Shown here one piece after another: positions 448 through 62,592 of a DNA stretch of 64,000 nt. The notes beneath the pieces are model-generated. The model was not told where the DNA came from. It ran no database searches and saw only the letters and a program-made list of their open reading frames with translations. Every line of letters begins with the position of its first letter. Position 1 is the first letter of the stretch. Both the position numbers and the translations under genes were made by a program. The DNA is from Bacteroidota bacterium (GTDB lineage Bacteria > Bacteroidota > Bacteroidia > Bacteroidales > FEN-979): assembly GCA_026391795.1 (NCBI GenBank), contig JAPLDI010000049.1, positions 34,594 through 98,593 of the forward strand, in the 5' to 3' direction.

Positions 448-1044
448 TCATTTTTCATTCTTCCTTTTTACCTCCTGATGCCGGAAACAATGAACCATGT
501 GGTCGTTTACCATTCCGGCTGCCTGCATATAAGAATAACAGATGGTTGATCCTACAAACTTGAATCCTCTTCTGATCAGGTCCCTGCTCATCGCATCCGA
601 TTCTTTGGATGTGACCGGAATGTCGCCGAGTCTTTTCCATTTATTGTGAATCGTTCGTCCTCCTGTGAATTGCCAGATGTAAGCATCAAACGACCCAAAC
701 TCCTTTCTGATTTCAAGGAAGAGGGATGCATTCAGGATGGAGGCATTGATTTTTGCCTTGTTGCGGATGATACCGGCATCCTGCAGCAGTGCGTCTTTCT
801 TCACCTGGCCGTACCCGGCAATTTTCCTGAAATCGAACTGGTCAAATGCCTTCCTGAAATTTTCTCTTTTATGGAGAACGGTTCTCCAGCTTAACCCTGC
901 CTGGAAACAGTCGAGCAGGATAAACTCGAAATGCTTTCTGTCATCGTGAACAGGATTCCCCCATTCACGGTCATGATAATCAATCATGAGCGGATCACCC
1001 GATGGCCACTCGCAGGAAGATGAACTGGCAGCTTGACTTTTCAT
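448..1044 (-). CDS. tag: DNA-3-methyladenine glycosylase I
   Basis: Base-excision repair enzyme that removes 3-methyladenine from alkylated DNA. The Tag signature is clear: CEWPSGDPLMIDYHDREWG near the N-terminus, then QAGLSWRTVLHKRE, and a C-terminal segment NDHMVHCFRH supplying His and Cys of the expected zinc site. I chose the ATG at 1044 (MKSQAASSSS) because the upstream part of the open frame is coded by a low-complexity GAATGAA repeat. The last codons (KRKNEK) are also made of GAATGAAA-like repeat, so the extreme C-terminus is probably not ancestral. It stands alone on the minus strand, opposite the tRNA-Ser. About 198 residues, close to the family's usual length. Confidence 0.92.
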   Translation of the reverse strand: MKSQAASSSSCEWPSGDPLMIDYHDREWGNPVHDDRKHFEFILLDCFQAGLSWRTVLHKRENFRKAFDQFDFRKIAGYGQVKKDALLQDAGIIRNKAKINASILNASLFLEIRKEFGSFDAYIWQFTGGRTIHNKWKRLGDIPVTSKESDAMSRDLIRRGFKFVGSTICYSYMQAAGMVNDHMVHCFRHQEVKRKNEK

Positions 1045-1060
1045 GAGATAAAGGTAAGTA

Positions 1061-1194
1061 GAAATGAAGAATGAAGAATGGAAAATGAACGAGGCACGGT
1101 AAGAAAGTAACAAAGTCACAAAGTAGCAGTAACCTTAATCATCCAGCATCGAGCATCCAGCATCCAGCAATCCAGCATCGAGCATCCAGCATCC
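1061..1194. repeat. Three short degenerate tandem words
   Basis: Three different words lie in a row between tag and the tRNA-Ser promoter: GAATGAA-like units at 1061-1090, GTCACAAA-like units at 1102-1127, and seven or so AGCATCC/AGCATCG heptamers at 1141-1194. Each word recurs elsewhere in the window: GAATGAA behind ftsK, GTCACAAA behind htpG, and the heptamer inside argS and the uvrA-like gene and behind purM. No gene is seen in this stretch. Confidence 0.85.
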
Positions 1195-1202
1195 TCTTTC
1201 CT

Positions 1203-1232
1203 TTTGTATTTCTCAAAAAAAGTGTACTTTTG
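1203..1232 (+). promoter_or_regulatory. Promoter of tRNA-Ser
   Basis: TTTG at 1203-1206 and TACTTTTG at 1225-1232 are separated by 18 nt, fitting the Bacteroidota TTTG/TAnnTTTG promoter. The predicted transcription start falls at or within a few bases of the mature tRNA 5' end at 1238, so little or no 5' leader would need removal. Confidence 0.6.
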
Positions 1233-1237
1233 CCGGT

Positions 1238-1324
1238 GGAGAGATGGCAGAGTGGTCGAATGCGGCGGTCTCGAAAACCGTTGATCCCTTTTGGGATCCG
1301 GGGGTTCGAATCCCCCTCTCTCCG
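1238..1324 (+). tRNA. tRNA-Ser (anticodon CGA)
   Basis: The acceptor arms GGAGAGA (1238-1244) and TCTCTCC (1317-1323) pair perfectly and are followed by discriminator G1324. The anticodon arm GCGGT-CUCGAAA-ACCGT gives anticodon CGA, which reads UCG. A long variable arm with GATCCC/GGGATC pairing is typical of class II serine tRNA, and the T arm carries GGTTCGAATCC. CCA is not encoded. Any long reading frame crossing this region is spurious. Confidence 0.97.
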
Positions 1325-5520: not shown

Positions 5521-5602
5521 CTAAGTTATCAAGTTCTTAAAGTTTATCAAGTTTATAAAGTTCATAAAGTTTGTAGAGTTTGTAAAGTTCAAAAAGTTAT
5601 CC
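5521..5602. repeat. AAGTTTATA nonamer tandem repeat upstream of pyrI
   Basis: About eight degenerate 9-nt units of the type AAGTTTATA/AAGTTCATA/AAGTTTGTA directly in front of the pyrI start codon. The same word lies in the opposite orientation at 5723-5757 behind the pyrB stop, and again between the histidine kinase and response regulator at 40.4 kb. Confidence 0.9.
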
Positions 5603-5722: not shown

Positions 5723-5757
5723 CACTTTAAAAACTTTATAAACTTTACAAACTTTCT
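5723..5757. repeat. Inverted copy of the 9-nt repeat behind pyrB
   Basis: Four degenerate units reading AAACTTTATA-like on the plus strand begin directly at the pyrB stop codon (5756-5758). They are the reverse complement of the array at 5521-5602, so the pyrB-pyrI transcript could pair the two arrays into a long AU-rich stem. Confidence 0.85.
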
Positions 5758-6667
5758 ACTTCTTTACTCCCAGGATCGATGCCAGGATGGCCTGTCTGAC
5801 ATAAACCCCGTTGAGTGCCTGGGTGAAATAATAGGCCTGGGGATTATCATCCACATCAATGGTGATCTCGTTGACCCTGGGCAGGGGATGCAATATCCGC
5901 ATGTTCGGCCTGGCCTTTTCCAGCATGGAATTCCGGAGGATATAGGAGTTTTTCACCCGTTCATACTCGATCGGATCGGAGAAACGTTCTTTCTGGATAC
6001 GCGTCATGTAGAGAATGTCGACCTTCGGGATCACATCGATGATGTCGGTGTACTGGTAATACTCAAGTTTGTTCTCTTTGATATGGATCTTTGTTGCACT
6101 GGGAAGTTTCAGCAGTTGAGGCGAAACCAGGTGAAACGTTGTATTGTAGTTCGATAATGCCATGACCAGAGAATGAACGGTTCGTCCGTATTTCAGGTCG
6201 CCGACGAACGCGATGTTAAGGTTATCGAGCGTCCCTTGTGTTTTTCGTATGGAGTACATGTCAAGCAAGGTCTGCGTGGGATGCTGGTTGGCGCCGTCTC
6301 CTGCATTGATAACCGGTACCTCCGACACTTCGCTGGCAAAACGTGCACTGCCTTCCTTCGGGTGGCGCATCACGATGATATCGGAGTAATTGGCCACGGT
6401 CTTGATCGTATCCCGCAGCGATTCTCCTTTCTGAACGCTGGTCGAACCGGGTTCCGAAAACCCGATCACCTTGGCTCCCAACCGCGACGCAGCGCTTTCA
6501 AAACTGAGGCGCGTCCGTGTGGAAGGTTCGAAAAAGAGGGTGGCCACTACATAATCCTGGAGGATCTTCTGGGTGGGTTTTTTTTCGAATTCTTCGGCCA
6601 GATCAAGGATGTGGATTTGTTCTTCCCGGGTAAAATCGGTAATCGAGACTAAACTTTTATTTTTCAT
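5756..6667 (-). CDS. pyrB: Aspartate carbamoyltransferase catalytic chain
   Basis: Catalyses condensation of carbamoyl phosphate with aspartate, the committed step of pyrimidine synthesis. The carbamoyl-phosphate motif FFEPSTRTRLSFE is intact, as are GDGANQHPTQTLLD and the C-terminal HPLPRVNEI. Starting at the ATG at 6667 (MKNKSLVSITDFTREE) gives about 303 residues, the family length. It leads the pyrB-pyrI-AlbA_2 run and is separated from the upstream GTPase gene by a strong terminator at 6697-6722. Its stop codon passes straight into a tandem repeat. Confidence 0.97.
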   Translation of the reverse strand: MKNKSLVSITDFTREEQIHILDLAEEFEKKPTQKILQDYVVATLFFEPSTRTRLSFESAASRLGAKVIGFSEPGSTSVQKGESLRDTIKTVANYSDIIVMRHPKEGSARFASEVSEVPVINAGDGANQHPTQTLLDMYSIRKTQGTLDNLNIAFVGDLKYGRTVHSLVMALSNYNTTFHLVSPQLLKLPSATKIHIKENKLEYYQYTDIIDVIPKVDILYMTRIQKERFSDPIEYERVKNSYILRNSMLEKARPNMRILHPLPRVNEITIDVDDNPQAYYFTQALNGVYVRQAILASILGVKK

Positions 6668-6696
6668 CGGCAGGAATTTTAATGAACAGATAAAGT

Positions 6697-6722
6697 TAAA
6701 AAAAAGGGGCAAAAGCCCCTTT
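6697..6722 (-). terminator. Intrinsic terminator behind the GTPase gene
   Basis: On the minus strand an 8-bp stem AAAGGGGC/GCCCCTTT with a TTTT loop is followed by an unbroken T run. It lies directly behind the stop of the gene at 6725-8071 and before pyrB, so pyrB must have its own promoter or depend on read-through. Confidence 0.85.
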
Positions 6723-9034: not shown

Positions 9035-9040
9035 ATCTTG

Positions 9041-9085
9041 GAAGGATAGAGAAGTGATAGGGGAGGGATAGAGGAGTGATAGCGG
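9041..9085. repeat. GGATAGAG/GTGATAGG tandem word
   Basis: About five degenerate units of the type GGATAGAG/AGTGATAG follow six bases after the stop of the gene at 8423-9034. The rest of the gap to 9322 contains only a weak TATTTTTG element (9221-9228) that might serve the next gene. Confidence 0.75.
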
Positions 9086-9322
9086 AATGCCCTTCCGGAA
9101 AGCTTCCTATCATATACGGTCCATGAAGGATCATACATGAATGATTGATGCTTACTTGAACTGTTAAGACAACAAATTCAAATATTCCATCTGCTTTGTG
9201 AATATCTGGATGTTTTTTCTTATTTTTGGATGAATGGGATTTGAGCTACCGGTTAATAAATAACCTTAGAGCTTTAAGCAAAACGTTCGGGCAGATTTAA
9301 GAAGGCTGAAATCATTTTTAAT

Positions 9323-11571: not shown

Positions 11572-13428
11572 ATGATCGAACAGCAGTTGCAGGCAAAAAC
11601 CTCTGAAGCCATAAAGAAACTGTACGGGCAGGATTTTCCTTCCGGTTCCGTCGGAGTTGAAAAAACGAAGAAGGAGATAGAAGGCGATTTTACCATTGTG
11701 GTTTTCCCGTTGAGCAAGATATCCGGAAAATCTCCCTTACAAACTGCAAATGATATTGGAATTTACCTGAAAGAGCATCTTTCTATCGGGAAATTCAATG
11801 TCATTCATGGTTTCCTGAACATTATCCTGAAAGACGAATACTGGATTTCATTCCTGGAAGAGCATTTTTACGAGGGGCGGTTTGGACTTACGACAGCGCA
11901 AGGCGAAACCCCGGTGCTTGTCGAATATTCATCTCCCAACACCAACAAGCCGCTCCATCTCGGTCACATCCGCAACAACCTTCTTGGGTTTTCACTCGCC
12001 CGCATCCTGCAGGCCAACGGACAAAATGTGATCAAGCTCAACCTGGTCAACGACCGGGGCATCCACATCTGCAAGTCGATGCTTGCTTACATGAAATGGG
12101 GCAAAAATGAAACACCCTCATCCGCAGGAATAAAAAGCGACCATCTCATCGGCAAGTATTATGTTATCTTTGACAAGGAATACAAAAAAGAGATCGCTGC
12201 CCTGGTTGAAGGGGGGATGAAGGAAGAAGACGCCCTTCGCAATGCCCCATTGATTGTTGAAGCACAGGATTTACTTCTCAAATGGGAAGCCGGTGATCCC
12301 GGTACACACGAGCTCTGGTCGCGTATGAGCGGATGGGCGTTTGAAGGGTTTACGGAAACGTACCGGACACTCGGCGTCGATTTCGATGTCGTCCAGAAAG
12401 AATCGGATACATACCTGGCAGGTAAAGATATCGTGATGGAAGGGGTCCGTGAAGGCCTCCTTGAAAAGCATGCCGACGGAAGCATATGGGCCGATCTGCG
12501 TGACGAGGGACTCGACGAAAAGCTGCTTCTGCGATCCGACGGCACATCCGTATACATGACCCAGGATCTCGGAACGGCCGATCTGCGCTACCGTGAATTT
12601 CGCCCCTCGAAGATGATCTACGTGGTGGGGAATGAACAGAATTATCATTTTGACGTCCTGAGAAGGATTCTTCATAAACTCGGCCACGTATGGTCCGATA
12701 CGTTGTTCCACCTATCCTACGGGATGGTTGAACTTCCCGAAGGCAAGATGAAATCACGGGAAGGCACTGTTGTTGACGCCGATGACCTGATGCAGGAAAT
12801 GTTCACCACGGCTGAAGAAACGACCAGGGCGTTGGGCAAGGTAGAAGGATTCCCTGAAGTGGAAGCAAAGGAATTGTTCCGGATCATCGGACTTGGGGCA
12901 TTAAAATATTTTATCCTGAAAGTGGATCCGAAGAAGAACATGCTTTTCGATCCGAAAGAATCCATTGACTTCAACGGCAATACAGGTCCGTTCATTCAGT
13001 ACACATACGCACGTATCAAATCGCTGTTACGCAAGGCGGAGGATGGAGGATGGAAGATGGAGGACGGAGGTCTGAAGTCGGAGATCGGAGGACACAATCC
13101 AGCATCCAGCATCGAGCATCGAGCATCGAGCATCCAGCATCGAGCATCCAGCATGCTGCTTCTCCCCCGTGAAAAAGATACGCTCCGGCTTCTTTACCAG
13201 TTCCCCGAAGTGGTAGCCCAGGCAGGAGAAGCATACAGCCCTGCTGCCATAGCAAACTATGTTTATGAGCTGTCCAGGCAATATAACCAATTCTACCAGG
13301 AGATCCCTGTTCTGAAGGAAGAAGACGAGAATGCCAGAGTGCTAAGGTTGAAATTATCCCTTTTCACCGGGAATGTCATTAAAAAAGCCATGTGGCTCCT
13401 GGGAATTGAGGTTCCGGAAAGAATGTAA
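11572..13428 (+). CDS. argS: Arginyl-tRNA synthetase with in-frame repeat insertion
   Basis: Charges tRNA-Arg. Class I motifs are intact: SSPNTNKPLHLGHIRNN (HIGH-type, about residue 129), the Arg-tRNA synthetase core and GKMKSREGT as the KMSKS equivalent. The C-terminal DALR anticodon domain ends in AMWLLGIEVPERM. I use the ATG at 11572; a TTG seven codons earlier overlaps a TATTTTTG promoter element (11546-11553) and would lie at the transcription start. Residues about 489-528, between RIKSLLRKA and LLPREKDTL, are coded by tandem repeats (EDGGWKMEDGG, then ASSIEHRASSIQHRASS). They fall in the linker between catalytic core and DALR domain, so activity may be kept. Confidence 0.95.
   Translation: MIEQQLQAKTSEAIKKLYGQDFPSGSVGVEKTKKEIEGDFTIVVFPLSKISGKSPLQTANDIGIYLKEHLSIGKFNVIHGFLNIILKDEYWISFLEEHFYEGRFGLTTAQGETPVLVEYSSPNTNKPLHLGHIRNNLLGFSLARILQANGQNVIKLNLVNDRGIHICKSMLAYMKWGKNETPSSAGIKSDHLIGKYYVIFDKEYKKEIAALVEGGMKEEDALRNAPLIVEAQDLLLKWEAGDPGTHELWSRMSGWAFEGFTETYRTLGVDFDVVQKESDTYLAGKDIVMEGVREGLLEKHADGSIWADLRDEGLDEKLLLRSDGTSVYMTQDLGTADLRYREFRPSKMIYVVGNEQNYHFDVLRRILHKLGHVWSDTLFHLSYGMVELPEGKMKSREGTVVDADDLMQEMFTTAEETTRALGKVEGFPEVEAKELFRIIGLGALKYFILKVDPKKNMLFDPKESIDFNGNTGPFIQYTYARIKSLLRKAEDGGWKMEDGGLKSEIGGHNPASSIEHRASSIQHRASSMLLLPREKDTLRLLYQFPEVVAQAGEAYSPAAIANYVYELSRQYNQFYQEIPVLKEEDENARVLRLKLSLFTGNVIKKAMWLLGIEVPERM
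13038..13155. repeat. Composite tandem repeat inside argS
   Basis: A purine-rich part (GGATGGAG-like units, 13038-13092) is followed by about eight AGCATCC/AGCATCG heptamers (13097-13155). Three heptamers make 21 nt, so the protein shows a seven-residue period (ASSIEHR, ASSIQHR). The same two-part order, GGATGGA then CAGCATC, occurs non-coding at 43319-43468. Confidence 0.9.
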
Positions 13429-13567: not shown

Positions 13568-14116
13568 ATGAAAAAGAAGAAGTTAGCAGTCTGGATCCTG
13601 TTACTGTTCCTGATCCCGGTAATGCATGTATTTGCCCAGATGGACATGGGAAAAATGTCCATGGGAAAGAATGTGAAGGCCATCTGTGTTCTTTATGCAA
13701 CCCAGGGTAATAATGTCACGGGTATCATCACTTTCACTCAAACGGACAAGGGCGTTAAAGTTGTTGCCGATCTGCAGGGGCTGACAAAAGGGAAGCACGG
13801 TTTTCATATCCATGAATTCGGCGATTGCAGTTCGGTTGACGGGACATCTGCCGGAGGGCACTTTAATCCCGAAGGAAAGAGTCATGGTGCACCGTTGGAT
13901 ATGTCGCGGCACATGGGCGATATGGGAAACCTGGAGGCCGATGAATCGGGGAAAGCCCACCTTGAATACACAGATGCCACCATTCAGCTTAATGGCCCGA
14001 ACTCGATCCTTGGCAGGTCGGTCATCATCCATAAAAATGAGGATGATCTGAAAACACAACCTACGGGGAATGCAGGCCCGAGGGTGGCATGCGGTGTGAT
14101 AGGAGCAGCAAAGTGA
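13568..14116 (+). CDS. sodC: Superoxide dismutase [Cu-Zn], exported
   Basis: Dismutates superoxide outside the cytoplasm. A signal peptide (AVWILLLFLIPVMHVFAQ) precedes a short Met-rich stretch (MDMGKMSMGK) that may help bind copper. The Cu/Zn ligands are visible in HGFHIHEFGDCSS, GHFNPEGKSHG, a distal His segment, and VIIHKNEDDL. GNAGPRVACGVIG supplies the active-site Arg and the second disulfide Cys. 182 residues, the usual length. It has its own promoter and is followed by the dihaem cytochrome gene, which also has a promoter. Confidence 0.95.
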   Translation: MKKKKLAVWILLLFLIPVMHVFAQMDMGKMSMGKNVKAICVLYATQGNNVTGIITFTQTDKGVKVVADLQGLTKGKHGFHIHEFGDCSSVDGTSAGGHFNPEGKSHGAPLDMSRHMGDMGNLEADESGKAHLEYTDATIQLNGPNSILGRSVIIHKNEDDLKTQPTGNAGPRVACGVIGAAK

Positions 14117-14146
14117 AGTGGTGCAGTGGTGCAGAGGTGCAGTGGG
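14115..14146. repeat. GTGCAGTG octamer repeat behind sodC
   Basis: Three to four units of GGTGCAGT/AGGTGCAG start within the sodC stop codon and end next to the -33 element of the following promoter. Confidence 0.75.
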
Positions 14147-15258: not shown

Positions 15259-15288
15259 TCAGCTCATCAACTCATCAACTCATCAGCT
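15259..15288. repeat. TGATGAGT octamer repeat behind the ABC permease
   Basis: Three to four AACTCATC units (TGATGAGT in the sense of the permease gene) follow its TGA stop after only a few bases. The same word follows cydB and overlaps the 3' ends of the histidine kinase and the Fe-S protein at 62.6 kb. Confidence 0.85.
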
Positions 15289-18812: not shown

Positions 18813-21800
18813 TTATAGGGGCCGGATGTATTTTGAGAGGTAAGAACCGGTTAAGGAACCGGGGTTTTTCATAATATCAGAAACGCTTCCTTCAGCGACA
18901 ATTTTGCCGCCCCTGTCGCCTCCTCCCGGTCCGAGGTCAATGATCCAGTCAGCCTGGAGAATAATCTCAGGATCATGTTCAATAACAATCAGTGTGTGTC
19001 CTTTCTCTGCAAGGTTCCGGAAAAGTTTATTCAGGTGGATGATATCGAGGAAGTGAAGCCCTGTTGAAGGTTCATCAAAGAGATAGAGGTTTTTTCCCTT
19101 GACAGGTTTTATCAGTTCTGTTGCCAGTACAAGCCGCTGGCTTTCACCCCCCGAAAGGCTATCGAGTGATTGTCCGAGCTGCAGGTACCCCAATCCTACA
19201 TCTTCAAGGGTCTTCAGTTGTACTTTCAGGTTTTTCTGATCATCAAAGAAAACAGCGGCATCAGAAAAACTCATGTCCAGGATATCTGCAATTGTTTTGT
19301 CCTTATAACGGCATGAAAGGATTGACAGGTTGTAACGCAACCCCTTGCATTCCTCGCAGATCATAGGGATATCCGACATAAAATCCATGCTTACCGTGAT
19401 CTTTCCGGCTCCCTGGCAATGCGGGCAGCGCCCTTCCTTGTTGAGAAAAGAGAAGTGGTTTTTTCCAAGATTCAGGAGCCTGGCATTCTCTGATTTTGCA
19501 AAAAGGTCCCGGATTTTATCAAAGGTTCCTGTGAAGGTGACGGTGGTGCCGTTCGATCCGGTAAATTCTGACCTGGGATGTACAGGAACCAGGTTTGAGA
19601 AAATTCCCAGGCCCGAAATATGACTGCATGCTGTTGGTTCGGAGTTCTTCCAGGATGCCAATAAAACATCGAAGATCAGGCTTGACTTCCCGCTACCGGA
19701 AACACCGGTTACCGTAATGATTCCGCCTGACGGGATCACAAGATCAAATCCCTTCAGGTTGTTTGCAGAGGCTTTTCGGATGATCAGGCCTTCCAAAAGT
19801 TTTCGTTGTACCCCATCCGTCACGAATTCTCTTTTCTGTAAAAACGGACCTGTGACAGAGGCTGTATTCTCTCTGATCTCACCGGGACTTCCTTCTGCCA
19901 GTATCCTGCCTCCAAGCTTTCCTCCGCCGGGTCCAAGATCAATAATATGATCAGAGGAGAGGATCACGTCCCGGTCGTGTTCAACAATGACAACTGTGTT
20001 ATTCTGATGCTGCAGGTTTCGGATCATCCCCATCAGCCGGCTTACATCGGACGGATGCAACCCTATGGTTGGTTCATCAAGCACATAGGTGGTTCCTGTC
20101 AGGCCTGAACCCAGCTGTCCCGCCAAACGGATGCGCTGGGCCTCACCTCCTGAAAGTGTCGATGAATTCCGGTTGACTGAAAGGTATGACAATCCCATTC
20201 CTTCAATAAACTCAAGCCGTTTCAATATGTCTCTTACAAGAGGTGCTGCAATGGCTTTTAAATGCGGACCGGAGTTCAGGAACAGCGGATCTTTGAATAA
20301 CCCGATCGAGGCTGAAACCGTCATGGATGAGAGTTGTGCAATGTTGATTCCCTGCAGGGTGAAGCTAAGTGCCTGGGTAGACAGGCGTGCCCCACGGCAG
20401 GCAGGACACTCTTCCTTCATCATAACATCCATCATTTCATCTCCCCTGTGATCCGCATGTTTCCGTCCGTATTCTTCATTGACAAGAAAAAGAAATCCCT
20501 GCCACCGGCCTTCAAAATGATGTTCTCCTTCGCGCTTGTTTCTCCGGTATTCCCAGGTAACATCGAAAACCTCCTCCCCGGCTCCGTTCATTGCCAGGTT
20601 TCTGGCCTGTTCGGACAGACCCTGCCAGGGAACCGAATAATCGATGTTATGAGAATTCCCGGCTGCTTTGAGTGTGGAAACATACTGCCCAAAAGGATCC
20701 CCGTAAAAATTCCCGGTTTTCGTACCATTCAGCGCACCATCGAGGAGTGATCTTTCGGGATGTGTGACCAGAAGAGAGGGATTGCAAACTGTGACGGCTC
20801 CAAGCCCGTGACATAACGGGCAGGCACCGTGCTGGTGATTGAAGGAGAACAGGGAAGAGAGAACAGTCCCGGTTTGTAATTCTGATTCCCCGATCCTGGC
20901 GAAGAGTAACCGGTAGAGGTCATAAATGCCCGTCAGTGTCCCCAATGTGGATCTTGGGTTGACCCCTGATGTTCCCTGTCCAACTGCAAGCGAAGGTGTT
21001 AGGCCTGAGACCTCTTCAAAATCAGGTTTGTCTTTCATTCCCAGGCGGGTACGGGCATACGTTGAAAAACTCTCAAGAAAACGGTTCCTTGATTCGGCAA
21101 ACAGCGTGTCAAAGGCCAGTGATGATTTTCCACTGCCGGAAACGCCGGTCATGACGGTTATTCTGTTATGAGGGATTCTTACTGAGATGTTTTGAAGATT
21201 GTTAGTAGTTACTCCTGAGAAAGTGATGCTGGATGCTGGATGCTGGATACTGGATGTGTGAGATGTGGGAGGTGGGATGCTGGATGCCGGGCTCTGGATG
21301 CTGGATACTGGATGCTGGATACTGGATGCTGGATGCGCGGGAGTGGAAAAATCATCCTCGCGAATGGCGAAAGTCGAAAGGCGAACAGCTGATAGATACT
21401 CTGCCAATGCCTTGCCGGTGTGTGATTCTTTGCAGGCTGCTACTTCTTCCGGTGTGCCGGTAACAACAATCGATCCGCCTTCTTTTCCGCTACCCGGACC
21501 GAGGTCGATCACATGATCGGCGGAAGCGATCACACCCAGGTGGTGTTCAATGAGGACCACCGTGTTTCCCTGTTTTATCAGGGTGTCAAGCGCCCGAAGA
21601 AGGACCCTGACATCAGCCTGATGCAGCCCTGTTGTAGGTTCATCAAGAATATAGAGTGTATGACCGGAGTGAGGGAACGCAAGTTCAGTAGCCAGTTTGA
21701 CACGCTGTGCTTCACCGCCGCTGAGTGTTGTGGATCGCTGTCCAAGTTTCAGGTAACCCAGCCCAAGGTCGTTCATGGCATCAAGGAAACGCAGGATGGC

Positions 21801-25070: not shown

Positions 25071-25115
25071 AAGATTACGAAATCCGAAATCCGAATTCCG
25101 AATTCGAAATTCCGT
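25071..25115. repeat. CCGAAAT/CCGAATT tandem word behind the VIT1 gene
   Basis: About five units of the type AATCCGAA/ATTCCGAA begin right after the TAA stop of the gene at 23961-25070. Confidence 0.8.
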
Positions 25116-25236: not shown

Positions 25237-25270
25237 TAATTGATAATTGACAATTGATAATTGATAATTG
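25237..25270. repeat. GATAATT heptamer repeat between cydB and the small protein
   Basis: Four TTGATAA/TTGACAA units lie six bases before the start codon of the 34-residue protein. A short TGATGAGT-type word (25307-25317) follows the cydB stop in the same gap. Confidence 0.8.
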
Positions 25271-28350: not shown

Positions 28351-28438
28351 TCAATTTACGATTTACGATTTACGATTTTTTCGCGTCACGTGTCACGCGT
28401 CACGCGTTACGATATTTTCGCCATTTCGCCATTTTGTA
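28351..28438. repeat. Three tandem words between a TPM gene and the DUF4492 gene
   Basis: In the sense of the TPM gene: ATGGCGAA-type units, then CGTGACG-type heptamers, then CGTAAAT heptamers, starting three bases after the TAA stop. The first word recurs behind the response regulator (39.7 kb), the last behind ftsK (51.8 kb). Confidence 0.85.
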
Positions 28439-30460: not shown

Positions 30461-30497
30461 ACGTTTTGTTTTAGATTGTTGGCTAATTTAATTATAA

Positions 30498-30576
30498 AAG
30501 TCACAAAGTCACAAAGTCACAAAGTCACAAAGTCACAAAGTTATTTTTTCTTCTTTTTAATTCGTAATTCGTAATT
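30498..30576. repeat. GTCACAAA octamer and CGTAATT words behind htpG
   Basis: Five near-perfect GTCACAAA units (30498-30542) and two CGTAATT units (30557-30576, reaching the htpG stop). The octamer is the most regular array in the window. Confidence 0.9.
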
Positions 30577-34527: not shown

Positions 34528-34557
34528 AATTACCAATTATCCATTATGAATTATCAA
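34528..34557. repeat. TAATTGG/TTGATAATT word between prfA and pyrF
   Basis: The complete 30-bp gap between the prfA stop and the pyrF start is made of degenerate AATTATC/TAATTGG units, related to the array before the CydX-like gene. Confidence 0.8.
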
Positions 34558-35628
34558 TTAGCTTACCGCCTCTTTCATACGTTCAGCGTTTTCAGCAAGT
34601 TGCAAGGCTTCGATCAGGGGCTGAACGTCCCCATCCATGATGACAGCCAGGTTGTAGAGTGTCAGGCCGATGCGGTGATCGGTCACGCGGCTCTGGGGAT
34701 AGTTGTAGGTGCGGATCTTTGCAGAACGGTCACCGGTGGAGACCATCGTTTTCCTTTTCTTCGAGATCTCATCAAGGTACTTCTGATGTTCCATCTCATA
34801 CAAACGGGAACGCAATACCTTCATCGCTTTTTCAAAATTCTTCATCTGAGATTTCTCGTCCTGGCAGCTGGCCACGATACCCGATGGAATATGCGTCAGC
34901 CGGATGGCGGAATAGGTCGTATTTACCGATTGCCCGCCCGGACCGGATGCACAGAAGGTGTCTTTCCGTATATCGGCGGGTTTAATATCAATATCAAATT
35001 CATCGGCTTCCGGTAACACGACTACACTGGCTGCCGAGGTGTGCACGCGCCCCTGTGTTTCCGTCTGGGGAACACGCTGAACACGGTGAACACCCGATTC
35101 ATATTTCATCTGGCCATAAACACCATCGCCAGTCACATTAAAGATGATCTCCTTGAAGCCTCCGGCTGTACCATCCTGGAAATCAACAAGCTCTACTTTC
35201 CATCCGCGGTTTTCACAGAACTTATTGTACATCCGGTAAAGGTCGCCGGCAAAAATACTGGCTTCATCCCCGCCGGTGCCGGCACGGATCTCAACAACGG
35301 CATTCTTCTCATCTTCCGGGTCAACCGGAACCAGCAACAGGCGGATCTGGTCCTCCAGGTCATCCCTCTCATGGGTTATGGTGTCAAGCTCCTCTTTTGC
35401 AAGGCTCCTGAATTCCTCGTCTTTCTCATTGTGGATGATGTTTTTTGCATGATCGATGTTGGCCAGGATATTTTTGTACTTCTCATACGCCTCCATGATC
35501 GCCTGCAACGACTTGTAATCCTTGCTCAGCTTGATGTATCGTTTCATGTCGCTCATCACGTCAGGATCTGACATCTGTTTCTCGATCTCGTCGTACTTGA
35601 GCTTGATGGCTTCTAATTTGTCTAGCAT
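34558..35628 (-). CDS. prfA: Peptide chain release factor 1
   Basis: Recognises UAA and UAG and triggers peptide release. 356 residues. The GGQ loop is intact ([19 protein letters not shown]), and the codon-recognition region reads [19 protein letters not shown], with a PxT motif as expected for RF1. An N-terminal coiled-coil domain precedes it. It lies between purM and pyrF on the minus strand; the gap to purM (191 nt) is filled with tandem repeats. Confidence 0.96.
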
Positions 35629-35667: not shown

Positions 35668-35819
35668 CCAGCTGGATGCTGGATGCTGGGTTAAGGGTAT
35701 TAGGTATTAGGCTTTAGGAAGCAGATGCTGGATACTGGATGCTGGATGTTTGGGTGTGGGTTTGGGTTTGGGTTTGGATGTAAGATAGTGCCGACTGCGG
35801 ACTGCTGACTGCCGACTTA
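35668..35819. repeat. Mosaic of tandem words between purM and prfA
   Basis: In 150 bp there are five blocks: GGATGCT heptamers (35671-35690), GGTATTA heptamers (35695-35718), GGATGCT/GGATACT again (35724-35750), GGGTTT hexamers (35750-35778) and GACTGCG/GACTGCT heptamers (35792-35819). The last block starts right at the purM stop codon. No gene or terminator is seen. Confidence 0.9.
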
Positions 35820-39678: not shown

Positions 39679-39712
39679 TATTTCGTCATCCCGCTATTTC
39701 GCCATCTCGCTT
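39679..39712. repeat. ATGGCGAAATA-type repeat at the response regulator 3' end
   Basis: Two to three degenerate units GCGAGATGGCGAAATA/GCGGGATGACGAAATA (sense of the regulator) span the stop codon, supplying the final codons for SEMAK and the TAG itself. The same word stands behind the TPM gene at 28.4 kb. Confidence 0.75.
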
Positions 39713-40404
39713 TTTATAATGAGCCTGAACCCGTTTCCATGAATGTTGATGATCTCGATGGATGGGTCGGGCCTCAGATATTTGCGAAGCCGCGCCATAA
39801 ACACATCCATGCTCCGTGTCGTAAAATAATCTTCTTTTCCCCAGATCTGCCGGAGTGCATCGTGGCGGGTAAGAACCCCTTCTTTCGCGCTGCAGAGCAT
39901 TTTTAGAAGTTCAGCTTCTTTTGGCGATAGTGTCTGTGAGATCTTACCCAGCCTGAGAATTCTCAACCGGCAATCAAAATGGAAAGCTCCGATTTCATAG
40001 AACTGGGGTTTATCGTCTGCTGACGATGCCATGGCATTCCTTTTGAGAATGGCTGCAATCTTATACAGCAGGACTTCTGAATCGAAAGGTTTGGTAAGGT
40101 AATCATCGGCACCGATGCGGAATCCTTCCAGCACATCTTCCTTTAAGGTCTTCGCTGTAAGGAAAATGAGGGGAATTTTGCTGTTCAGCTTCCGAAGCTC
40201 CTTTGCAAGCGTGAACCCATCCATCTCCGGCATCATGATGTCCAGGATGCAGAGATCAAAGAAAAAGGTCCGGAAGGCACTTAATCCCTGCTTCCCGTCT
40301 GTTTTGAGTATGACTTCATAATCTGCAAGTTCGAGATAGGATTTAAGGATTGACCCGAAATTAGGATCGTCTTCCACCAGCAGTATTTTTACTTTTTTAA
40401 CCAT
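39694..40404 (-). CDS. OmpR-family response regulator
   Basis: 236 residues. The receiver domain has the acidic pair EDD (about 11-13), the phosphoacceptor Asp in CILDIMMPEMDGF (about residue 55) and LTKPFDSE with the conserved Lys. The C-terminal winged helix ends in RSMDVFMARLRKYLRPDPSI and INIHGNGFRLI, the OmpR/PhoB type. It follows the histidine kinase gene and is the natural partner. Architecture and pairing recall Bacteroides RprY-RprX. Its likely binding site is the phased TTAAC array at 42444-42480. Confidence 0.92.
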   Translation of the reverse strand: MVKKVKILLVEDDPNFGSILKSYLELADYEVILKTDGKQGLSAFRTFFFDLCILDIMMPEMDGFTLAKELRKLNSKIPLIFLTAKTLKEDVLEGFRIGADDYLTKPFDSEVLLYKIAAILKRNAMASSADDKPQFYEIGAFHFDCRLRILRLGKISQTLSPKEAELLKMLCSAKEGVLTRHDALRQIWGKEDYFTTRSMDVFMARLRKYLRPDPSIEIINIHGNGFRLIIKSEMAK

Positions 40405-40407
40405 GGG

Positions 40408-40510
40408 TTATAAAGTTCATAAAGTTTATAAAGTTCATAAAGTTTGTAAAGTTTATAAAGTTCATACAGTTCACCAACTCATCAACTCATCAGCTCATCA
40501 GCTCATCAGC
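40408..40510. repeat. Two tandem words between histidine kinase and response regulator
   Basis: In kinase sense: five TGATGAGC/TGATGAGT octamers (from inside the last kinase codons to about 40473), then six or seven degenerate AACTTTATA/AACTTTATG nonamers up to three bases before the regulator start. The nonamer is the same family as in pyrBI. Confidence 0.9.
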
Positions 40511-42328
40511 TTTTAGAGGTAGACTTACCTCAAACCTGCTCCCTTTTCCGACTTCGCTCGTTACCCTGATCTCACCTTTATGAGCTAAAATAATGGCACG
40601 GGCATAACTCAGTCCCAGGCCGAATCCTTTAACATTGTGTATGTTCCCCGTATTAAGGCGGTAGAATTTTTCAAAGATCTTGCGCTGAGTCTCCGCGTTC
40701 ATCCCGATCCCCTTATCTTCTATGATCACTACAACAGTTGAATTCCGGTTCACGGTTTCAACCCTGATTTCAGGCTTTCCCGGCGAATATTTGTTTGCAT
40801 TGTCAAGAAGGTTCATGATCACATTGGAAAGGTGGATATCGTCCGCATCCACAACCGCATTCTGTGCCCCCGTTTGAAGTTCCAGATGTCCTTCCCGGTT
40901 CTCAACCTGCAACCGGATATTCAGGGCAACTTTGGCCACCAGGGCATTTATATCGACCGGTTTGAAGTTAAGTCTGAATTCACTGCTGTCAAGCAGTGCC
41001 ATCTGCAGAACCTGCTCAACACGGGCATTCATCCGGTTGTTCTCCTCTTTGATGATCCGTGTGAAGGATTTAATCCGTTCCGGCTCATCGATCACCTTTG
41101 CATTATTGATTGAATCGACTGCGATGGAAATGGTAGCAATGGGAGTCTTGAATTCATGGGTCATGTTGTTGATGAAATCCGTCTTTATATCCGAGATCTT
41201 TTTCTGGCGCAACATAGTCACGATTCCAAGTATGGAGGAAAGGATGATGATCAGTGTGAAGAACAACGAAACCAGCATCAAACCGGAGAGGGATCTTAGA
41301 ACAATACTTCCTTGTTCGGGGAAGTAGAGCAGCAAGGTGTTGGTTTTTTCGAAGATGTCGTTCGGGAACAGCGAAACCCGGTGGATCTGGTTTTTTTTGT
41401 CGATCTGAAACCCGGCTGATTTCAGCGGAACCTGTCTCTTGCCCTGTCTGGTTGAGATCACCGCATACTCATAGGGATTAAAGATGTCTTTATCCGCGAG
41501 TGATTTCGAAAGCGACCTTTCCAGGTTGTCCCGGTTGATTCGCATCTCTATTGGAACCGGCTTGTTTTCCATTTCGCGCGCCATTTTCTGGATCACATCC
41601 TTGATCTTTCTGGCTTTTTTCGAAATGGTTCTCATATCATCATGAAATGCCATCCCCGGGTCATGCATGTCCGTCGCCGGATTGATGCAGATCCTGGCTG
41701 TCGCTTCAATCTCTTTCAATTTCTCGTTCTTCTGATGGATCTTTTTTTTGCTAATCGTGCTGGTCTTCGTTGAATGCAAGGGTGATCCGTTGAGCAGGTG
41801 CGATCCGTAGATTCGCTGCCGGTCGGCCATCATGACGGAGTCGAATCGCTTGCTGTCAAATTCTGTATTCCACTCAATTGTAAATCCGTCCGGGTAATCC
41901 TGTGCGAAAACCTGGACCTGCTGGTATTGACGAACTGCAGAATCGAACTCGGCAATGTTTGAATTGTAACTTTCATCCAGGAACAACACAGGAAAAGGCG
42001 GACACCCTGGAGAGGATGGGGGACGGATATCTTCATCCTTTTTCAGAAGGGAATCCAGTTTATCATTAAGTGCCAGGATAGGATCCTGCGAAAAAGCCTG
42101 CACAAGGGCATGAACACTGTCGCCGACGAGATTTTTCTTCAGGTAAACAATATCTTCCCTGACTTCCAGCTTATTCACAACGTTGCCAAGCGCCTCATTC
42201 ACGCTGCGGTCGAACTGGGCCTCCTTTACCTGGATTGCATTCAGAATCCAGAAATACTGCACAGCCACGATCCCCGCAAGCGAGATGCAGATAAATGCAA
42301 TGATGATGTACAGTACCTTTTTTTTCAT
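40490..42328 (-). CDS. Membrane sensor histidine kinase
   Basis: About 612 residues. Two membrane helices (YIIIAFICISLAGIVAVQYF at the N-terminus; LMLVSLFFTLIIILSSILGI near 360) enclose a large periplasmic sensor of about 320 residues without a recognised domain. The kinase core follows: NNMTHEFKTPIATISIAVDS (phospho-His), NLLDNANKYSPG (N box), EDKGIGM (G1) and GFGLGLSYARAI (G2). I use the ATG at 42328 (MKKKVLYI); an earlier ATG at 42367 is possible. The last codons (ADELMS and stop) are made of the TGATGAGC repeat. It is cotranscribed with the regulator and read divergently from the Cys-rich gene. Confidence 0.92.
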   Translation of the reverse strand: MKKKVLYIIIAFICISLAGIVAVQYFWILNAIQVKEAQFDRSVNEALGNVVNKLEVREDIVYLKKNLVGDSVHALVQAFSQDPILALNDKLDSLLKKDEDIRPPSSPGCPPFPVLFLDESYNSNIAEFDSAVRQYQQVQVFAQDYPDGFTIEWNTEFDSKRFDSVMMADRQRIYGSHLLNGSPLHSTKTSTISKKKIHQKNEKLKEIEATARICINPATDMHDPGMAFHDDMRTISKKARKIKDVIQKMAREMENKPVPIEMRINRDNLERSLSKSLADKDIFNPYEYAVISTRQGKRQVPLKSAGFQIDKKNQIHRVSLFPNDIFEKTNTLLLYFPEQGSIVLRSLSGLMLVSLFFTLIIILSSILGIVTMLRQKKISDIKTDFINNMTHEFKTPIATISIAVDSINNAKVIDEPERIKSFTRIIKEENNRMNARVEQVLQMALLDSSEFRLNFKPVDINALVAKVALNIRLQVENREGHLELQTGAQNAVVDADDIHLSNVIMNLLDNANKYSPGKPEIRVETVNRNSTVVVIIEDKGIGMNAETQRKIFEKFYRLNTGNIHNVKGFGLGLSYARAIILAHKGEIRVTSEVGKGSRFEVSLPLKADELMS

Positions 42329-42407: not shown

Positions 42408-42510
42408 CAAAATTATAAAAAGGAAAGGGTGTTCACGCATTTATTAACCTTTCCTTGACCATTTTTAACTGAACATTAACTTTTTACGGAACCGATTCCC
42501 CATAGATTTG
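42408..42510. promoter_or_regulatory. Divergent promoter region with phased TTAAC operator array
   Basis: Four like-oriented pentamers stand in a row: TTAAC (42444), TTGAC (42455), TTAAC (42465) and TTAAC (42476), spaced 11, 10 and 11 bp, thus on one face of the helix. The last two extend to TTAACT-N5-TTAACT, the direct-repeat style of OmpR/PhoB regulators. A plus-strand TAGATTTG (42503-42510) and a minus-strand TAATTTTG (42408-42415) flank the array, neither with a good -33 TTG, as expected for activator-dependent promoters. The adjacent response regulator is the obvious candidate binder. Confidence 0.65.
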
Positions 42511-42529
42511 CAGGAAAAAAGGAGGCACT

Positions 42530-43312: not shown

Positions 43313-43318
43313 AAAGGT

Positions 43319-43468
43319 AAGAATGGAGTATGGAGAATGGAGGATGGAGAATGGAAAATGGAAGATGGAAGATGGAAGATGGAGAATAGAGGATAGAGAT
43401 CGGAGGCAGGAAGAATTCAGATACCAACCAGCCGGTGCGCAGTCTAAAGTATCCAGCATCCAGCATCA
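43319..43468. repeat. Composite GGATGGA and CAGCATC repeat
   Basis: About ten degenerate ATGGAGA/ATGGAAG heptamers begin a few bases after the stop of the Cys-rich gene, followed by GATAGAG-like units, 35 bp of unique sequence and two CCAGCAT heptamers (43450-43468). The order of the two words is the same as in the argS insertion. Confidence 0.9.
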
Positions 43469-43520
43469 ATAAAAAGATGGTTTGAGGTTGATTTCACAAA
43501 GGGTAGTTGAGAGACTGCCC

Positions 43521-43563
43521 TTTTTTTATAAAAAAAAGGCTGCTTATGGGGGAGCAGCCTTTC
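43521..43563 (-). terminator. Strong terminator of the hydrogenase operon
   Basis: On the minus strand AAAGGCTGCT and AGCAGCCTTT form a perfect 10-bp stem (43535-43544 with 43553-43562) followed by eight T. It lies about 20 nt behind the hydA stop. Confidence 0.9.
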
Positions 43564-43581
43564 ATTTTGAGGAAGTAGAAA

Positions 43582-51782: not shown

Positions 51783-51881
51783 GTATTTACGATTTACGAT
51801 TTATGATTTACAATTTACGGCCTCCGAACTTCATTCTTTATTTTTTATTTTTCATTTTTCATTCTTCATTCTTTATTTTAC
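51783..51881. repeat. GAATGAAG and CGTAAAT words between ftsK and lolA
   Basis: In ftsK sense, GAATGAAG/GAATGAAA/AAATAAA units begin right after the TGA stop; after about 15 unique bases come four CGTAAAT heptamers that end at the lolA start codon. Confidence 0.9.
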
Positions 51882-60297: not shown

Positions 60298-60470
60298 CGT
60301 GCTTTTCTTTTGAAATGTGACTCTCAAATTAGTTCTTCAATGAACGCAAAATTATAAATAATATTTGAAAGAAATGCGTATTTTGAGAAGAAGGGAAAAA
60401 AATCAAGAAATTATGATTAGTTTTGCGTGGCATTTGAGAACTGTTTGTTGTTCTTTTTCATACCCATTTT

Positions 60471-61430
60471 ATGCTTGGCAGAAGGCATTACAGGATCAAG
60501 GTTTTTCAGGCGCTTTACGCCTGGTTCCAGGGTGGTGAAAGCCGCCAGGACGTTGCAGAAAGAGCCCTTCTGCAGAGCATTGATAAAATCACCGAACTTT
60601 ATTACCTGCAATTTTCTTTTTTTCTTGAAGTGATTGAGTTTTACCGGATGCGTTCCGAAGACGGAAAAAACAAGTTCTACCCGACGGAAGAAGAGCTGAA
60701 TCCCAACATGAAACTTCTTGAGAATTCCGTGATTACAGGCCTTCAGCAAAATAAGGGACTTCAAAAACAGTTCCATAACTTCAAATTTTCGTGGACGGAA
60801 GAGCAGGAGATGGTCCGTAAGATCTACCTGAAGGTAAAGAACCTGAAAGATCTGCGTTCCTACTTCAACCAGGAAACAAGTTCTTTTGAGACCGACCGTG
60901 ATATCGTTTACCGCATCTTTAAAAAGTGCATTTCAAAATCGGCTGAACTTCAGTTCTATTGTGAAGAACGGAACATCTTCTGGGTTGAGGATTATCAGTC
61001 GGCAGCCCTCTTCATCCTGAAAACCCTAAAGCAAATTCCTGAAGGGTTTCCCGACACCGGATCGCTGGTTTCGCTCTTTCCGAAAGATGAGGATGACGAT
61101 CCCAAGGAGGATAAAAAGTTCATCGTAGAGTTGTTCCAGAAAACCATTGCACAAAGTGAAAAGCTCGAAGAGCTGATCCGATTGAAAACAAAGAACTGGG
61201 AACTTGAGAGGATTGCTCTTACCGATATCATCCTGATCAAGATGGCAATGATTGAGCTGATGCATTTTCCTTCCATCCCCGTTAAAGTGACCCTGAACGA
61301 ATATATCGAGTTGTCAAAACTGTTCAGTACCCCAAAAAGCAAATTGTTCATCAACGGTTTACTTGATAAATTGGTCGAAGATCTTAAGAAAGAGAAAAAA
61401 ATCAAGAAAAAGGGGAGAGGCTTGCTATAA
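60471..61430 (+). CDS. nusB: Transcription antitermination factor NusB, long Bacteroidota form
   Basis: 319 residues, about twice the length of E. coli NusB, as usual in this phylum. The N-terminus (MLGRRHYRIKVFQALYAWFQ) and C-terminal half (ELERIALTDIILIKMAMIELMHF, VKVTLNEYIELSKLFSTPKS) form the NusB bundle; a helical insertion lies between. It binds boxA RNA with NusE for rRNA antitermination. TAGTTTTG at 60418-60425 is a candidate -7 element. porQ follows 46 nt downstream on the same strand. Confidence 0.94.
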   Translation: MLGRRHYRIKVFQALYAWFQGGESRQDVAERALLQSIDKITELYYLQFSFFLEVIEFYRMRSEDGKNKFYPTEEELNPNMKLLENSVITGLQQNKGLQKQFHNFKFSWTEEQEMVRKIYLKVKNLKDLRSYFNQETSSFETDRDIVYRIFKKCISKSAELQFYCEERNIFWVEDYQSAALFILKTLKQIPEGFPDTGSLVSLFPKDEDDDPKEDKKFIVELFQKTIAQSEKLEELIRLKTKNWELERIALTDIILIKMAMIELMHFPSIPVKVTLNEYIELSKLFSTPKSKLFINGLLDKLVEDLKKEKKIKKKGRGLL

Positions 61431-61476
61431 TATTTCCGCAGCATCCTCGTTATTTAAAAAATAATAAGCAAAGACT

Positions 61477-62544
61477 GTGCAGTATTTACTACGACTTTTC
61501 TTTATCATATTACTTTCAGGGATATTTGCTCTTTCTTCCATCGCACAGATCGGGGGACGTTCAACCTTTGGTTTCCTTGACCGCACAAACTCAGCAAGGG
61601 TGGCCTCCATGGGCGGAAATATCCTCGCTGTAAACGATGACGACATCAGCCTTGCACTGACAAATCCATCCCTCATCTCTGCGGGAATGAACAATACCCT
61701 CGCCCTGGATTTTGTTTCCCTTCGTTCTGCATACAGCTACGGGGATGTAATGTATTCAAAAACATTCAACAAGGTTGGAAGTTTTGTCGGGACATTTCAG
61801 TTTATCAATTACGGGAAATTTACCTATGCGGATATGGCCGGAAATACAAGTGGTGAGTTCGGCGCTTCTGAATATGCTTTAAATATAGGATGGGGAAGGA
61901 AACTGAGCCCCCATTTCTCGATCGGGGCCAATGGAAAACTTATCTATTCACAGCTGGAAAGTTACCGTTCATTCGGACTTGCCGTCGATGTTGCAGGATC
62001 TTACACTACAACCGACGACATCTTTTCAGCATCCCTCATCGCACGGAATATCGGAGTCCAGATTGTTACCTATATTCCCGGTACCCGCGATCCTTTGCCT
62101 TTTGTGATGCAGGCAGGGCTTGCAACACGCCTCAGACACATCCCTGTGCGGTTTTCACTGCTCTACAACAACATCGAGAAATGGGACCTGACCTATACTG
62201 ATCCGTTAAGTCCGGATAACCAGGTTGATCCCATTACCCAGCAACCAAAATCAAAAAGTGAGATCGGGATATTTGCCGATAAACTGATGCGTCATATTGT
62301 GCTTGGAACTGAGATCACCATTGCAAAAGTTTTCGCCATCAGGTTAGGCTATAATTACCGTACACGCCAGGAAATGAAGCTACCCGACCGAACAGCGCTC
62401 AGCGGTTTTACTTACGGTTTCGGGCTCCGGATCAAGATGTTTACCCTTAGTTATGCACGTGCTACTTACATGACAGGAACTTTCAATCCCAATTACTTCT
62501 CTTTTGCCGTGAATCTCGGGCAGTTCAGCAAGAAGAAAGAATAG
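61477..62544 (+). CDS. porQ: Type IX secretion system protein PorQ
   Basis: 355 residues with a signal peptide (FIILLSGIFALSSIAQ) and a 14-strand-like barrel: IGGRSTFGFLDRTNSARVAS, LALTNPSLISAGMNNTLALD, GASEYALNIGWGRKLSPH, YNYRTRQEMKLPDRTALSGF. These match PorQ, an outer-membrane partner of the PorU/PorV attachment complex. The start is a GTG at 61477: in-frame stops lie just upstream and no ATG precedes the signal peptide. With the T9SS-sorted protein at 9.3 kb and the PorE-like protein it shows that this organism has a type IX system. Confidence 0.9.
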   Translation: MQYLLRLFFIILLSGIFALSSIAQIGGRSTFGFLDRTNSARVASMGGNILAVNDDDISLALTNPSLISAGMNNTLALDFVSLRSAYSYGDVMYSKTFNKVGSFVGTFQFINYGKFTYADMAGNTSGEFGASEYALNIGWGRKLSPHFSIGANGKLIYSQLESYRSFGLAVDVAGSYTTTDDIFSASLIARNIGVQIVTYIPGTRDPLPFVMQAGLATRLRHIPVRFSLLYNNIEKWDLTYTDPLSPDNQVDPITQQPKSKSEIGIFADKLMRHIVLGTEITIAKVFAIRLGYNYRTRQEMKLPDRTALSGFTYGFGLRIKMFTLSYARATYMTGTFNPNYFSFAVNLGQFSKKKE

Positions 62545-62559
62545 ATCCCGGATTTTTAA

Positions 62560-62592
62560 ACTCATCAGCTCAGCAACTCATCACCTCACCAG
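62560..62592. repeat. TGATGAGT-type repeat at the 3' end of the Fe-S protein gene
   Basis: Four degenerate octamers (GGTGAGGT, GATGAGTT, GCTGAGCT, GATGAGTT in gene sense) supply the last codons for GEVMSC and the TGA stop of the gene at 62570-64000. The repeat ends a short distance from the convergent porQ stop. Confidence 0.8.

Follow-up and report, generated by a model that had tools for sequence, protein, structure and literature searches.

The DNA analysed here is a stretch of 64,000 nucleotides (nt), called the window, which spans positions 34594-98593 of contig C9 in G000, the genome studied. This Bacteroidota genome is a draft of 3.76 Mb in 50 contigs, 95.6% complete, and its match to a T9SS sorting domain is in line with the Bacteroidales. 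The subject is a class of short, degenerate tandem arrays that a preliminary description of the window had placed right behind stop codons at 16 named gene ends, and had tentatively ascribed either to a process acting at 3' ends or to selection for a role in 3' untranslated regions (UTRs).

Tandem Repeats Finder (TRF; score of at least 40, period 5-40, overlapping rows merged) returns 29 arrays in the window, of which 22 are of the described kind and 7 are ordinary in-gene repeats by our own sorting. When all called genes are counted, an array overlaps the stop or lies within 10 nt of it at 11 of 53 gene ends. Arrays overlapping or crossing a stop are GTGCAGTG at 14113..14145 (stop at 14116), AATTATC at 34528..34560 (stop at 34558, with no TRF array at this place in G003, the sister species), TATTTCGCCATCCCGC at 39679..39715 (stop at 39694), and TCATCAGC, which shares 40408..40511 with a ATAAAGTTC array and crosses the stop at 40490. 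The ACTTTAAAA array (5724..5755) abuts the stop at 5756 at a distance of 0, TGCCGAC (35789..35817) and TTCATTT (51830..51879) lie 2 nt off the stops at 35820 and 51882, and TCAACTCA (15259..15285), between convergent genes, lies 4 nt off the stop at 15290. An array with an 11/22-nt unit (9040..9087), CGAAATC (25078..25114), and ATGGAGG (43323..43398) begin 5, 7, and 10 nt past the stops at 9034, 25070, and 43312; terminator-like hairpins at 43498-43563 are separate from the last of these. The named ends bear out the earlier observation at these 11 stops. At three more, the arrays lie farther off: ATTTACG and CGCGTCA (28354..28411) are 27 nt from the stop at 28439, AAAGTCAC (5.6 copies, 30497..30541; the G003 junction has the same word family) is 33 nt from the stop at 30575, and TAATTGA (25237..25270) is 46 nt from the stop at 25317. 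The ends at 448 and 62570 have no array at a score of 40, and a few degenerate copies are visible there by eye only.

Other arrays occupy gaps at a distance from stops or lie within genes. Three (AATGAAG, GTAACAAA, and CATCCAG; 1063..1194) are on the called 5' side of the gene at 448-987 (minus strand) and adjoin a tRNA-Ser (cga) at 1238-1325; the orthologous gap of G004 contains, by eye, two tRNA-like copies amid arrays. The gap below the pyrB-like gene at 5756-6712 (minus strand) also holds a TTATAAAGT array (5526..5598), the compound gap below the gene at 35820-36992 (minus strand) holds GATGCTG and GTTTGG/GTTTGGGTGTGG arrays (35724..35781), and an ATTTACG array (51785..51819) lies in the gap between the gene ending at 51882 and the gene starting at 51755. 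The GTTTGGGTGTGG array (35748-35781) has a G-rich word that, by eye, resembles telomere repeats. Two arrays are in frame within genes assigned by family match: a two-part array of GGAGGAT followed by ATCCAGC/ATCGAGC (13029..13154, plus strand) in argS (11572-13428), and an ATCCAGC array, GATGCTG on the plus strand (21225..21336, minus strand), in a uvrA-like gene (18813-22568, minus strand). The uvrA-like sequence forms two open frames in this draft, 18813-22568 and 22584-23864, and a single frame of 1656 amino acids (aa) in G003.

In a sample of 1,124,092 bases of G000, with 835 genes from our own dicodon caller, 413 TRF rows merge into 293 arrays. Such arrays exceed chance: contigs C9, C15, and C18 contain 81, 92, and 47 rows, versus 6, 4, and 1 in one order-3 Markov copy of each. 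The sample is 88% coding, and 205 of the merged arrays are intergenic, 75 are coding (many of these being ordinary coding repeats), and 13 lie across an edge. Array density is 2.5 per kb of gap between convergent genes, 1.73 between genes in the same direction, and 1.03 between divergent genes. Clustering of the arrays in few gaps was rejected, as 144 gaps are occupied and 149.6 ± 5.5 are expected.

Heptamers are the commonest units, with period 7 in 138 of the 413 rows and 2210 exact tandem dimer positions at period 7 (819 at period 6, 311 at 8, 582 at 9, 8 at 10, and 63 at 11). When words within one mismatch are grouped, the largest clusters are AGCATCC (equivalent to ATCCAGC; 25 arrays), AATTACG (20), AAACTTTAT (17), AAAAATG (14), AATACCC (13), ACATCCC (12), AGCTCATC (10), and AGGATGG (7). 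These 8 clusters cover 118 of the 293 arrays, and 110 of the 139 clusters consist of a single array. Allowing up to one mismatch, ATAAAGTTCATAAAGTT occurs 168 times in G000 (0 for the reversed control) and ATCCAGC x3 occurs 601 times. Counts and clustering across the genome confirm that the same words recur at distant loci in both orientations, as had been noted within the window.

Position and strand at gene ends

Of the 141 arrays in same-direction gaps, 53 overlap the stop or lie within 10 nt of it, versus 19.6 ± 3.4 under uniform placement, and the start side has 21 arrays, versus 19.6 expected (all P values given here are uncorrected and come from many tests). Because uniformly placed arrays cannot overlap genes, a fairer null was used in which arrays may enter the coding sequence by up to 12 nt and the last 30 nt before starts are excluded. 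Under this null, 41 of 100 arrays in G000 are at the stop, versus 19.2 ± 3.6 expected, and none of 1000 shuffles reaches 41; arrays that cross the stop (19 versus 10.1 expected) make up about two fifths of the excess. The corresponding count in G003 is 19 of 69, versus 13.3 ± 2.8 (P = 0.03). In convergent gaps, the nearer stop is no more than 10 nt away for 15 of 33 arrays, versus 7.9 ± 1.5 expected, and in divergent gaps a start is that close for 1 of 28, versus 2.5 expected. A cruder pooled count, made without overlap or start exclusion, has 40 arrays beginning 0-10 nt past a stop, versus about 32 expected, and of the 828 gene 3' ends sampled, 71 lie no more than 10 nt from an array. The tie of arrays to stops is therefore real but moderate, about twofold in G000 and 1.4-fold in G003. 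It exceeds the general intergenic share, but the placement of arrays right behind stop codons was overstated: 48 of the 141 arrays in same-direction gaps are not closer to the stop than to the start, and 75 of the 293 arrays are in genes.

Arrays within 10 nt of a stop have a strand preference. Their sense strand is G-rich in 93 cases and C-rich in 15 (G000 and G003 together), versus 62:70 for array-free stop flanks. Near starts, arrays are C-rich, yet array-free start flanks are likewise (142:46). The preference extends to individual words, some of which overlap one another: near stops, the G-rich sense predominates for TCACCAGT (27:0), TCATCAGC (21:1), CATTCTT (12:0), ATCCTCC (12:2), ATCCCAC (15:2), ATCTCAC (13:3), and CTCATTC (6:1). 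When pooled over distance, the orientation of words to genes is mixed, and only AATTACG is biased (23:7).

The rule also applies to ATCCAGC/GATGCTG, a word whose two strands both lack stop triplets. At 0-9 nt past stops, GATGCTG is in the G-rich sense in 18 of 18 cases, 14 in public stretches (selected for four ATCCAGC copies, with open frames of at least 150 aa taken as genes) and 4 in the genus. Exact 12-nt runs within 30 nt past the stops of 2149 gene ends are in the G-rich sense 30 times and in the C-rich sense once (29:1 without one duplicate), and 20 of these 31 genes come from public records of several phyla. The stop of the 30 G-sense genes is TGA in 17, versus 748 of 2149 overall (P = 0.02), and in 13 of the 17 the TGA is followed by T, continuing the array phase TGATGCTG. 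Inside genes, GATGCTG has no strand preference (16 G-sense, 22 C-sense). At stops, strand is genuinely constrained (30 of 31), and some form of selection or some process has to account for this. The rule does not depend on quadruplexes, since GATGCTG has no GGG run; none of the main words (ATCCAGC/GATGCTG, AATTACG, and AAACTTTAY) contains GGG and, as read from the words, none has the four G runs of a quadruplex.

Words and places in related genomes

G000 and G003 differ in vocabulary. Exact tandem dimers of AACTGGTG occur at 23.9 loci per Mb in G003 and 2.7 in G000, and those of AAAAGCG at 19.1 and 2.7, whereas AATACCC and ACATCCC each occur at 0 loci per Mb in G003 and 8.9 in G000. Relaxed detection recovers some of the words missing from G003, such as AAACTTTAT-type arrays, which occupy 11 of the 477 gaps.

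Despite these differences, places are often kept while words differ between the two species. At the TRF threshold, 180 conserved adjacent gene pairs have arrays in both species at 14 junctions (8.4 ± 2.1 expected from gap-length strata), in G000 only at 18, and in G003 only at 21. A relaxed detector, built on 32 words chosen from G000 and G003, matches 11 of 200 random 150-nt stretches at a threshold of 13 and was applied to junctions at a threshold of 14, with gaps longer than 650 nt excluded (1 of 180 older pairs and 1 of 35 newer pairs). Of 213 conserved junctions, 30 have arrays in both species by this detector, versus 13.8 ± 2.5 when lengths are matched (by G003 gap length only), and 0 of 3000 shuffles reach 30. 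At these 30 junctions, the words are unrelated in 23 cases, of the same family and orientation in 6, and of the same family but inverted in 1. The 34 pairs fetched later have 6 shared junctions (1.9 expected) with no word in common. Sharing of words at junctions (7 versus 1.4 by chance) indicates that some arrays are old. A concerted 8-mer change from GATGAGCT in G000 to GGTGAACT in G003 at the same places, spotted post hoc at 4 junctions (0.9 expected), was set aside; the 34 fresh pairs contain 0 such changes versus 0.06 expected, too few for a test.

For 47 arrays, the orthologous gap is empty, and the longest run of the word there averages 5.1 nt, versus 4.4 nt in controls, so that most such gaps contain no seed. 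Gap length minus array is similar in the occupied and the empty species (137.9/121.2 and 146.0/124.8 nt), which suits net insertion.

Arrays also recur at fixed sites within genes. Among the DNA of nine genomes at the argS site (G000 included), eight have arrays and the array-poor congener G002 has none; in an alignment of 27 protein sequences, the insert was not seen in genera g3 and g8. The words at this site vary: GGAGGAT followed by ATCCAGC in G000, ATCCAGC in G004, GGAGGAT in G003, its reverse complement in G001, CCTCGTC-like and other words in G017, G007, and G023, and GGCTTCA in G012. Two metagenome argS proteins, P0002 and P0003, are distinguished by a single residue and by a 7-residue gap in the array, which would correspond to three heptamers if the DNA follows the protein; this is the one case of copy-number variation of the kind known from phase-variable repeats (VNTRs), seen at the protein level only. 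In uvrA, arrays occupy one site in both G000 and G003. The two-part peptide of argS recurs in P0004, an unrelated CobB-like protein that has two array-coded stretches between its domains, one of them purine-rich and the other SSIEHRASSIQHP-like. The argS insert (13020-13160) has no match in phage records, and a phage origin was set aside on that ground.

Across 22 genomes of the family, sampled in 23 stretches, the density of non-coding arrays varies between 0 and 6.65 per 10 kb. With one mismatch allowed, ATCCAGC x3 is present in 10 of 41 related genomes but was not found in G002, and the reversed word has 0 matches in each listed genome. The exact triplet is present in 6 of 395 genomes of the phylum (G000 included), 34 times in each of two distant genomes, and the reversed word in none. 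Farther afield, a scan with one genome per species detected at least 109 stretches with four exact ATCCAGC copies; the 80 matches listed belong, by title, to Bacteroidota, Pseudomonadota, Desulfobacterota-type bacteria, Planctomycetota, Verrucomicrobiota, Chloroflexi, Calditrichota, and others. Together with the peptide shared by the CobB-like protein, this spread supports the earlier surmise that the class is wider.

Origin of the arrays

An explanation with about an even chance of being correct is that the arrays are dispersed repeats of 7-9 nt that spread by copying, change length by slippage, and persist in permissive spots. It draws on the recurrence of words, the vocabulary of each species, the places kept with unrelated words, the mostly seedless empty sites, the in-frame inserts in argS and uvrA, and the 7-residue change in argS, from which we infer that a copying step and a selective filter are likely. 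Stretches of one array would be copied into other places, most simply by template switching in replication or repair, given that RVT_1 has no match in G000, G001, G003, and G004 (the control was positive in 3 of 14) and that MutS is present (MutS_V in 25 of 25 genomes). The same searches weaken reverse transcription or a telomerase product as the source and count against loss of mismatch repair as the cause. Array length would then probably be altered by slippage, with arrays persisting only where they are harmless, that is, in gene junctions, in tolerant protein loops, and at the last codons and stop. At gene ends, those retained would mainly be on the strand and in the phase that supply or preserve a stop at once. 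Because 21 nt of a heptamer array bring its unit into each of the three frames, one stop triplet per unit ends any frame, and arrays could thus become tied to stops without machinery that recognises stops.

Several results weigh against this explanation. No copying event was caught. In the units of stop-overlapping arrays, a stop triplet is confined to the sense strand in 36 cases and to the antisense strand in 2, but this ratio is partly built in, since an overlapping array contains the stop, and arrays 1-10 nt away give 24 and 18. A stop filter alone does not explain why GATGCTG flips at 30-99 nt past stops (10 G-sense, 26 C-sense). C-termini have moved in 19 of 55 array-bearing ends, versus 51 of 219 without an array (P = 0.12), a difference that is not significant, so most ends are unchanged; array-supplied stops were rejected on these counts as the whole cause of the tie. 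Unchanged C-termini fit insertion at the exact frame end, without proving it, but among 25 genes with a conserved C-terminus the stop fits the array phase in 7 and the preceding codon in 5. In about 23% of the empty gaps, the longest run of the word exceeds that of 90% of controls, so that some arrays would be old or locally seeded. Finally, arrays have a mean fold z of -1.25, versus -0.61 for array-free 3' flanks (from shuffles), which suits a hairpin role.

Local birth of each array, through slippage during replication of a partial repeat that happened to lie in the gap, with shared words being simply those that slip easily, is possible but unlikely. The copy-number change between close argS variants suits it, as does the general preference for heptamers (period 7 accounts for 139 of the 315 other arrays in the public stretches), and Mrazek et al. 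2007, according to PMC4679880, connected heptamers with slippage of the polymerase. Against it, seeds are lacking in most orthologous empty gaps, sister species with similar genes differ in vocabulary, and ATCCAGC x3 is present in 6 of 395 genomes, its reversed control in none. A function in the 3' UTR, in which hairpins or G-rich RNA elements guard transcripts or end them and selection acts on the structure while the word drifts, is also unlikely. Places are kept despite word change, same-word neighbours in a gap are inverted in 25 cases and direct in 13, AACTGGTG..CACCAGTT pairs have one polarity in 10 of 10, 27% of arrays (control, 13%) have a fold z below -2, and arrays at stops are G-rich in the sense strand when array-free flanks are not. 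However, an inverted partner alone is present for only 11 of 218 arrays (about 5 by chance), the plainest hairpins lie away from the array, terminator-like sites, with a GC stem and a T run, are not in excess (28 versus 24.0 ± 5.6 in shuffles of 24001-44000), the sole Rfam match is a tRNA, and at the TRF threshold the two species have in common only 14 of the 53 array-bearing junctions among the 180 pairs. Selection for a conserved 3' UTR role, one of the two causes first proposed, fits badly with the replacement of words at kept places (23 of 30 unrelated). The other, a process acting at 3' ends, is not borne out in the form proposed, as such arrays also lie within argS, within uvrA, and in mid-gap; a transcription-linked expansion through R-loops should favour one strand in genes as well, and the 16:22 count for GATGCTG does not support it.

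Repetitive extragenic palindromic (REP)-like elements sit behind genes, and the arrays might be mobile palindromes of this type, moved by a Y1 transposase and with arms turned into tandem words. We regard this as improbable. Matches to Y1_Tnp are present in 23 of the 25 genomes, with 5 of them in G000, and inverted array pairs in G003 have a conserved inner GAGT..ACTC border. But Y1_Tnp does not track array density, being present in array-poor G002 and absent from array-bearing G007; 29 junction pairs have no fixed flank or tag by eye; and unpaired arrays are the rule, of which the AACTGGTG pairs of G003 form an excepted subset. With the low count of inverted partners, the earlier remark that the words are not palindromic in the manner of REP elements stands. 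In G003 gaps such as C1:147171-147232, a AACTGGTG array and its reverse complement often flank a short AT-rich loop, and the loops vary by locus. That the arrays are artefacts of assembly or gene calling is scarcely credible: the genomes are drafts, several contigs end in arrays, and genes were called with our own caller, but the same class occurs in independent assemblies and named isolates (e.g., Sunxiuqinia dokdonensis DH1), and the arrays lie within contigs, between conserved genes. Contig ends lie within arrays in C36, C47, and C49 of G000 and C50, C53, and C145 of G012, among others; arrays thus probably break assemblies, and the longest ones have likely been missed.

Very improbably, the arrays mark places where chromosome breaks were healed by a telomere-like templated enzyme without a known reverse transcriptase domain. 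Each 3' end at a break would be extended with short G-rich words before the two were joined, so that the G-rich strand would run outward from each flank (G-rich on the left, C-rich on the right) with different words on each side, a repeat break would replace the word, and each species would have its own current word set. Neighbouring arrays are indeed ordered G-rich then C-rich in 28 of 30 cases (81:13 over all sets), but this order was rejected as a signature of break healing, since array-free gaps give 14:2 and the 7:2 inside genes is not significant.

Relation to described repeats

Cyanobacterial short tandemly repeated repetitive (STRR) sequences are heptamer repeats scattered across taxa. 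Bacterial heptamer repeats have so far been described word by word, without an accepted cause. The preliminary description could not confirm a published account, but two exist. The excerpted text of Rehm et al. 2015 (PMC4692102) describes GGGAATC and GGGGA(C/T)T heptamers in Xanthomonas and Nostoc that are mostly intergenic and fewer between divergent genes; downstream repeats lie mostly 0-50 nt past the stop, with the G-rich strand as the coding strand, and some overlap the stop. There, place is mostly kept between two species while length and sequence vary, and the repeats are linked to quadruplexes, with no function found. MacGregor 2015 (PMC4679880), in the parts consulted, reports dispersed TAACTGA direct repeats in Beggiatoaceae, Cyanobacteria, and five Bacteroidetes, and summarises Mrazek et al. 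2007, according to whom long simple sequence repeats of prokaryotes have units of 5-11 nt, with heptamers dominant and taxa scattered.

The arrays described here belong with these dispersed heptameric simple sequence repeats (the Rehm, MacGregor, and Mrazek type), in that the unit is of 5-11 nt, most arrays are non-coding, and one word occupies many loci. They resemble the repeats of PMC4692102, as excerpted, in being dispersed heptamers, mostly intergenic, with a G-rich coding strand near stops. Unlike those repeats, which comprise one G-quadruplex word per genome, they comprise many words that are replaced between species at kept places; GATGCTG lacks a GGG run, and the argS site takes in-gene inserts of many words. 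Like TAACTGA as excerpted from PMC4679880, they are tandem heptamers at many loci, patchy over phyla, with mixed words and with relatives that have empty gaps; unlike TAACTGA, which in its main species lies mostly just upstream of starts, they are in excess at stops. Borg tandem repeats (PMC9879509, in part) likewise occur in gaps and reading frames, evolve fast, and may begin within a gene end, but they are perfect, nearly unique to a locus, and a multiple of three in frames, whereas the present arrays are degenerate and recurrent, with heptamers in frame.

The tie to stops and the strand rule are thus already known for single heptamers of Xanthomonas and Nostoc from the text of PMC4692102. 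Relative to the literature found, in which only PMC4679880 and PMC4692102 among open-licence PMC papers are relevant to multi-word turnover, the new elements are the many words per genome, the replacement of words at kept places, the many-word argS site, and a strand rule for a stop-free, non-quadruplex word. Word vocabularies, conservation of place, and a strand rule are not described for the Mrazek-type repeats in the account in PMC4679880 and are not known from the STRR repeats. The function of such repeats can accordingly be divided into two questions, how a new array arrives and how the wrong strand is removed. Database peptides such as SSIQHPASS, as well as altered C-termini, can be array-encoded and call for caution. 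A repeat of GTCATTGCGAGG/TTGCTTCGCTGCGCTCGCAATGAC type, unlike the words, occupies similar places, namely the argS site of G007 and the gap by gene 224 on contig C15 of G000.

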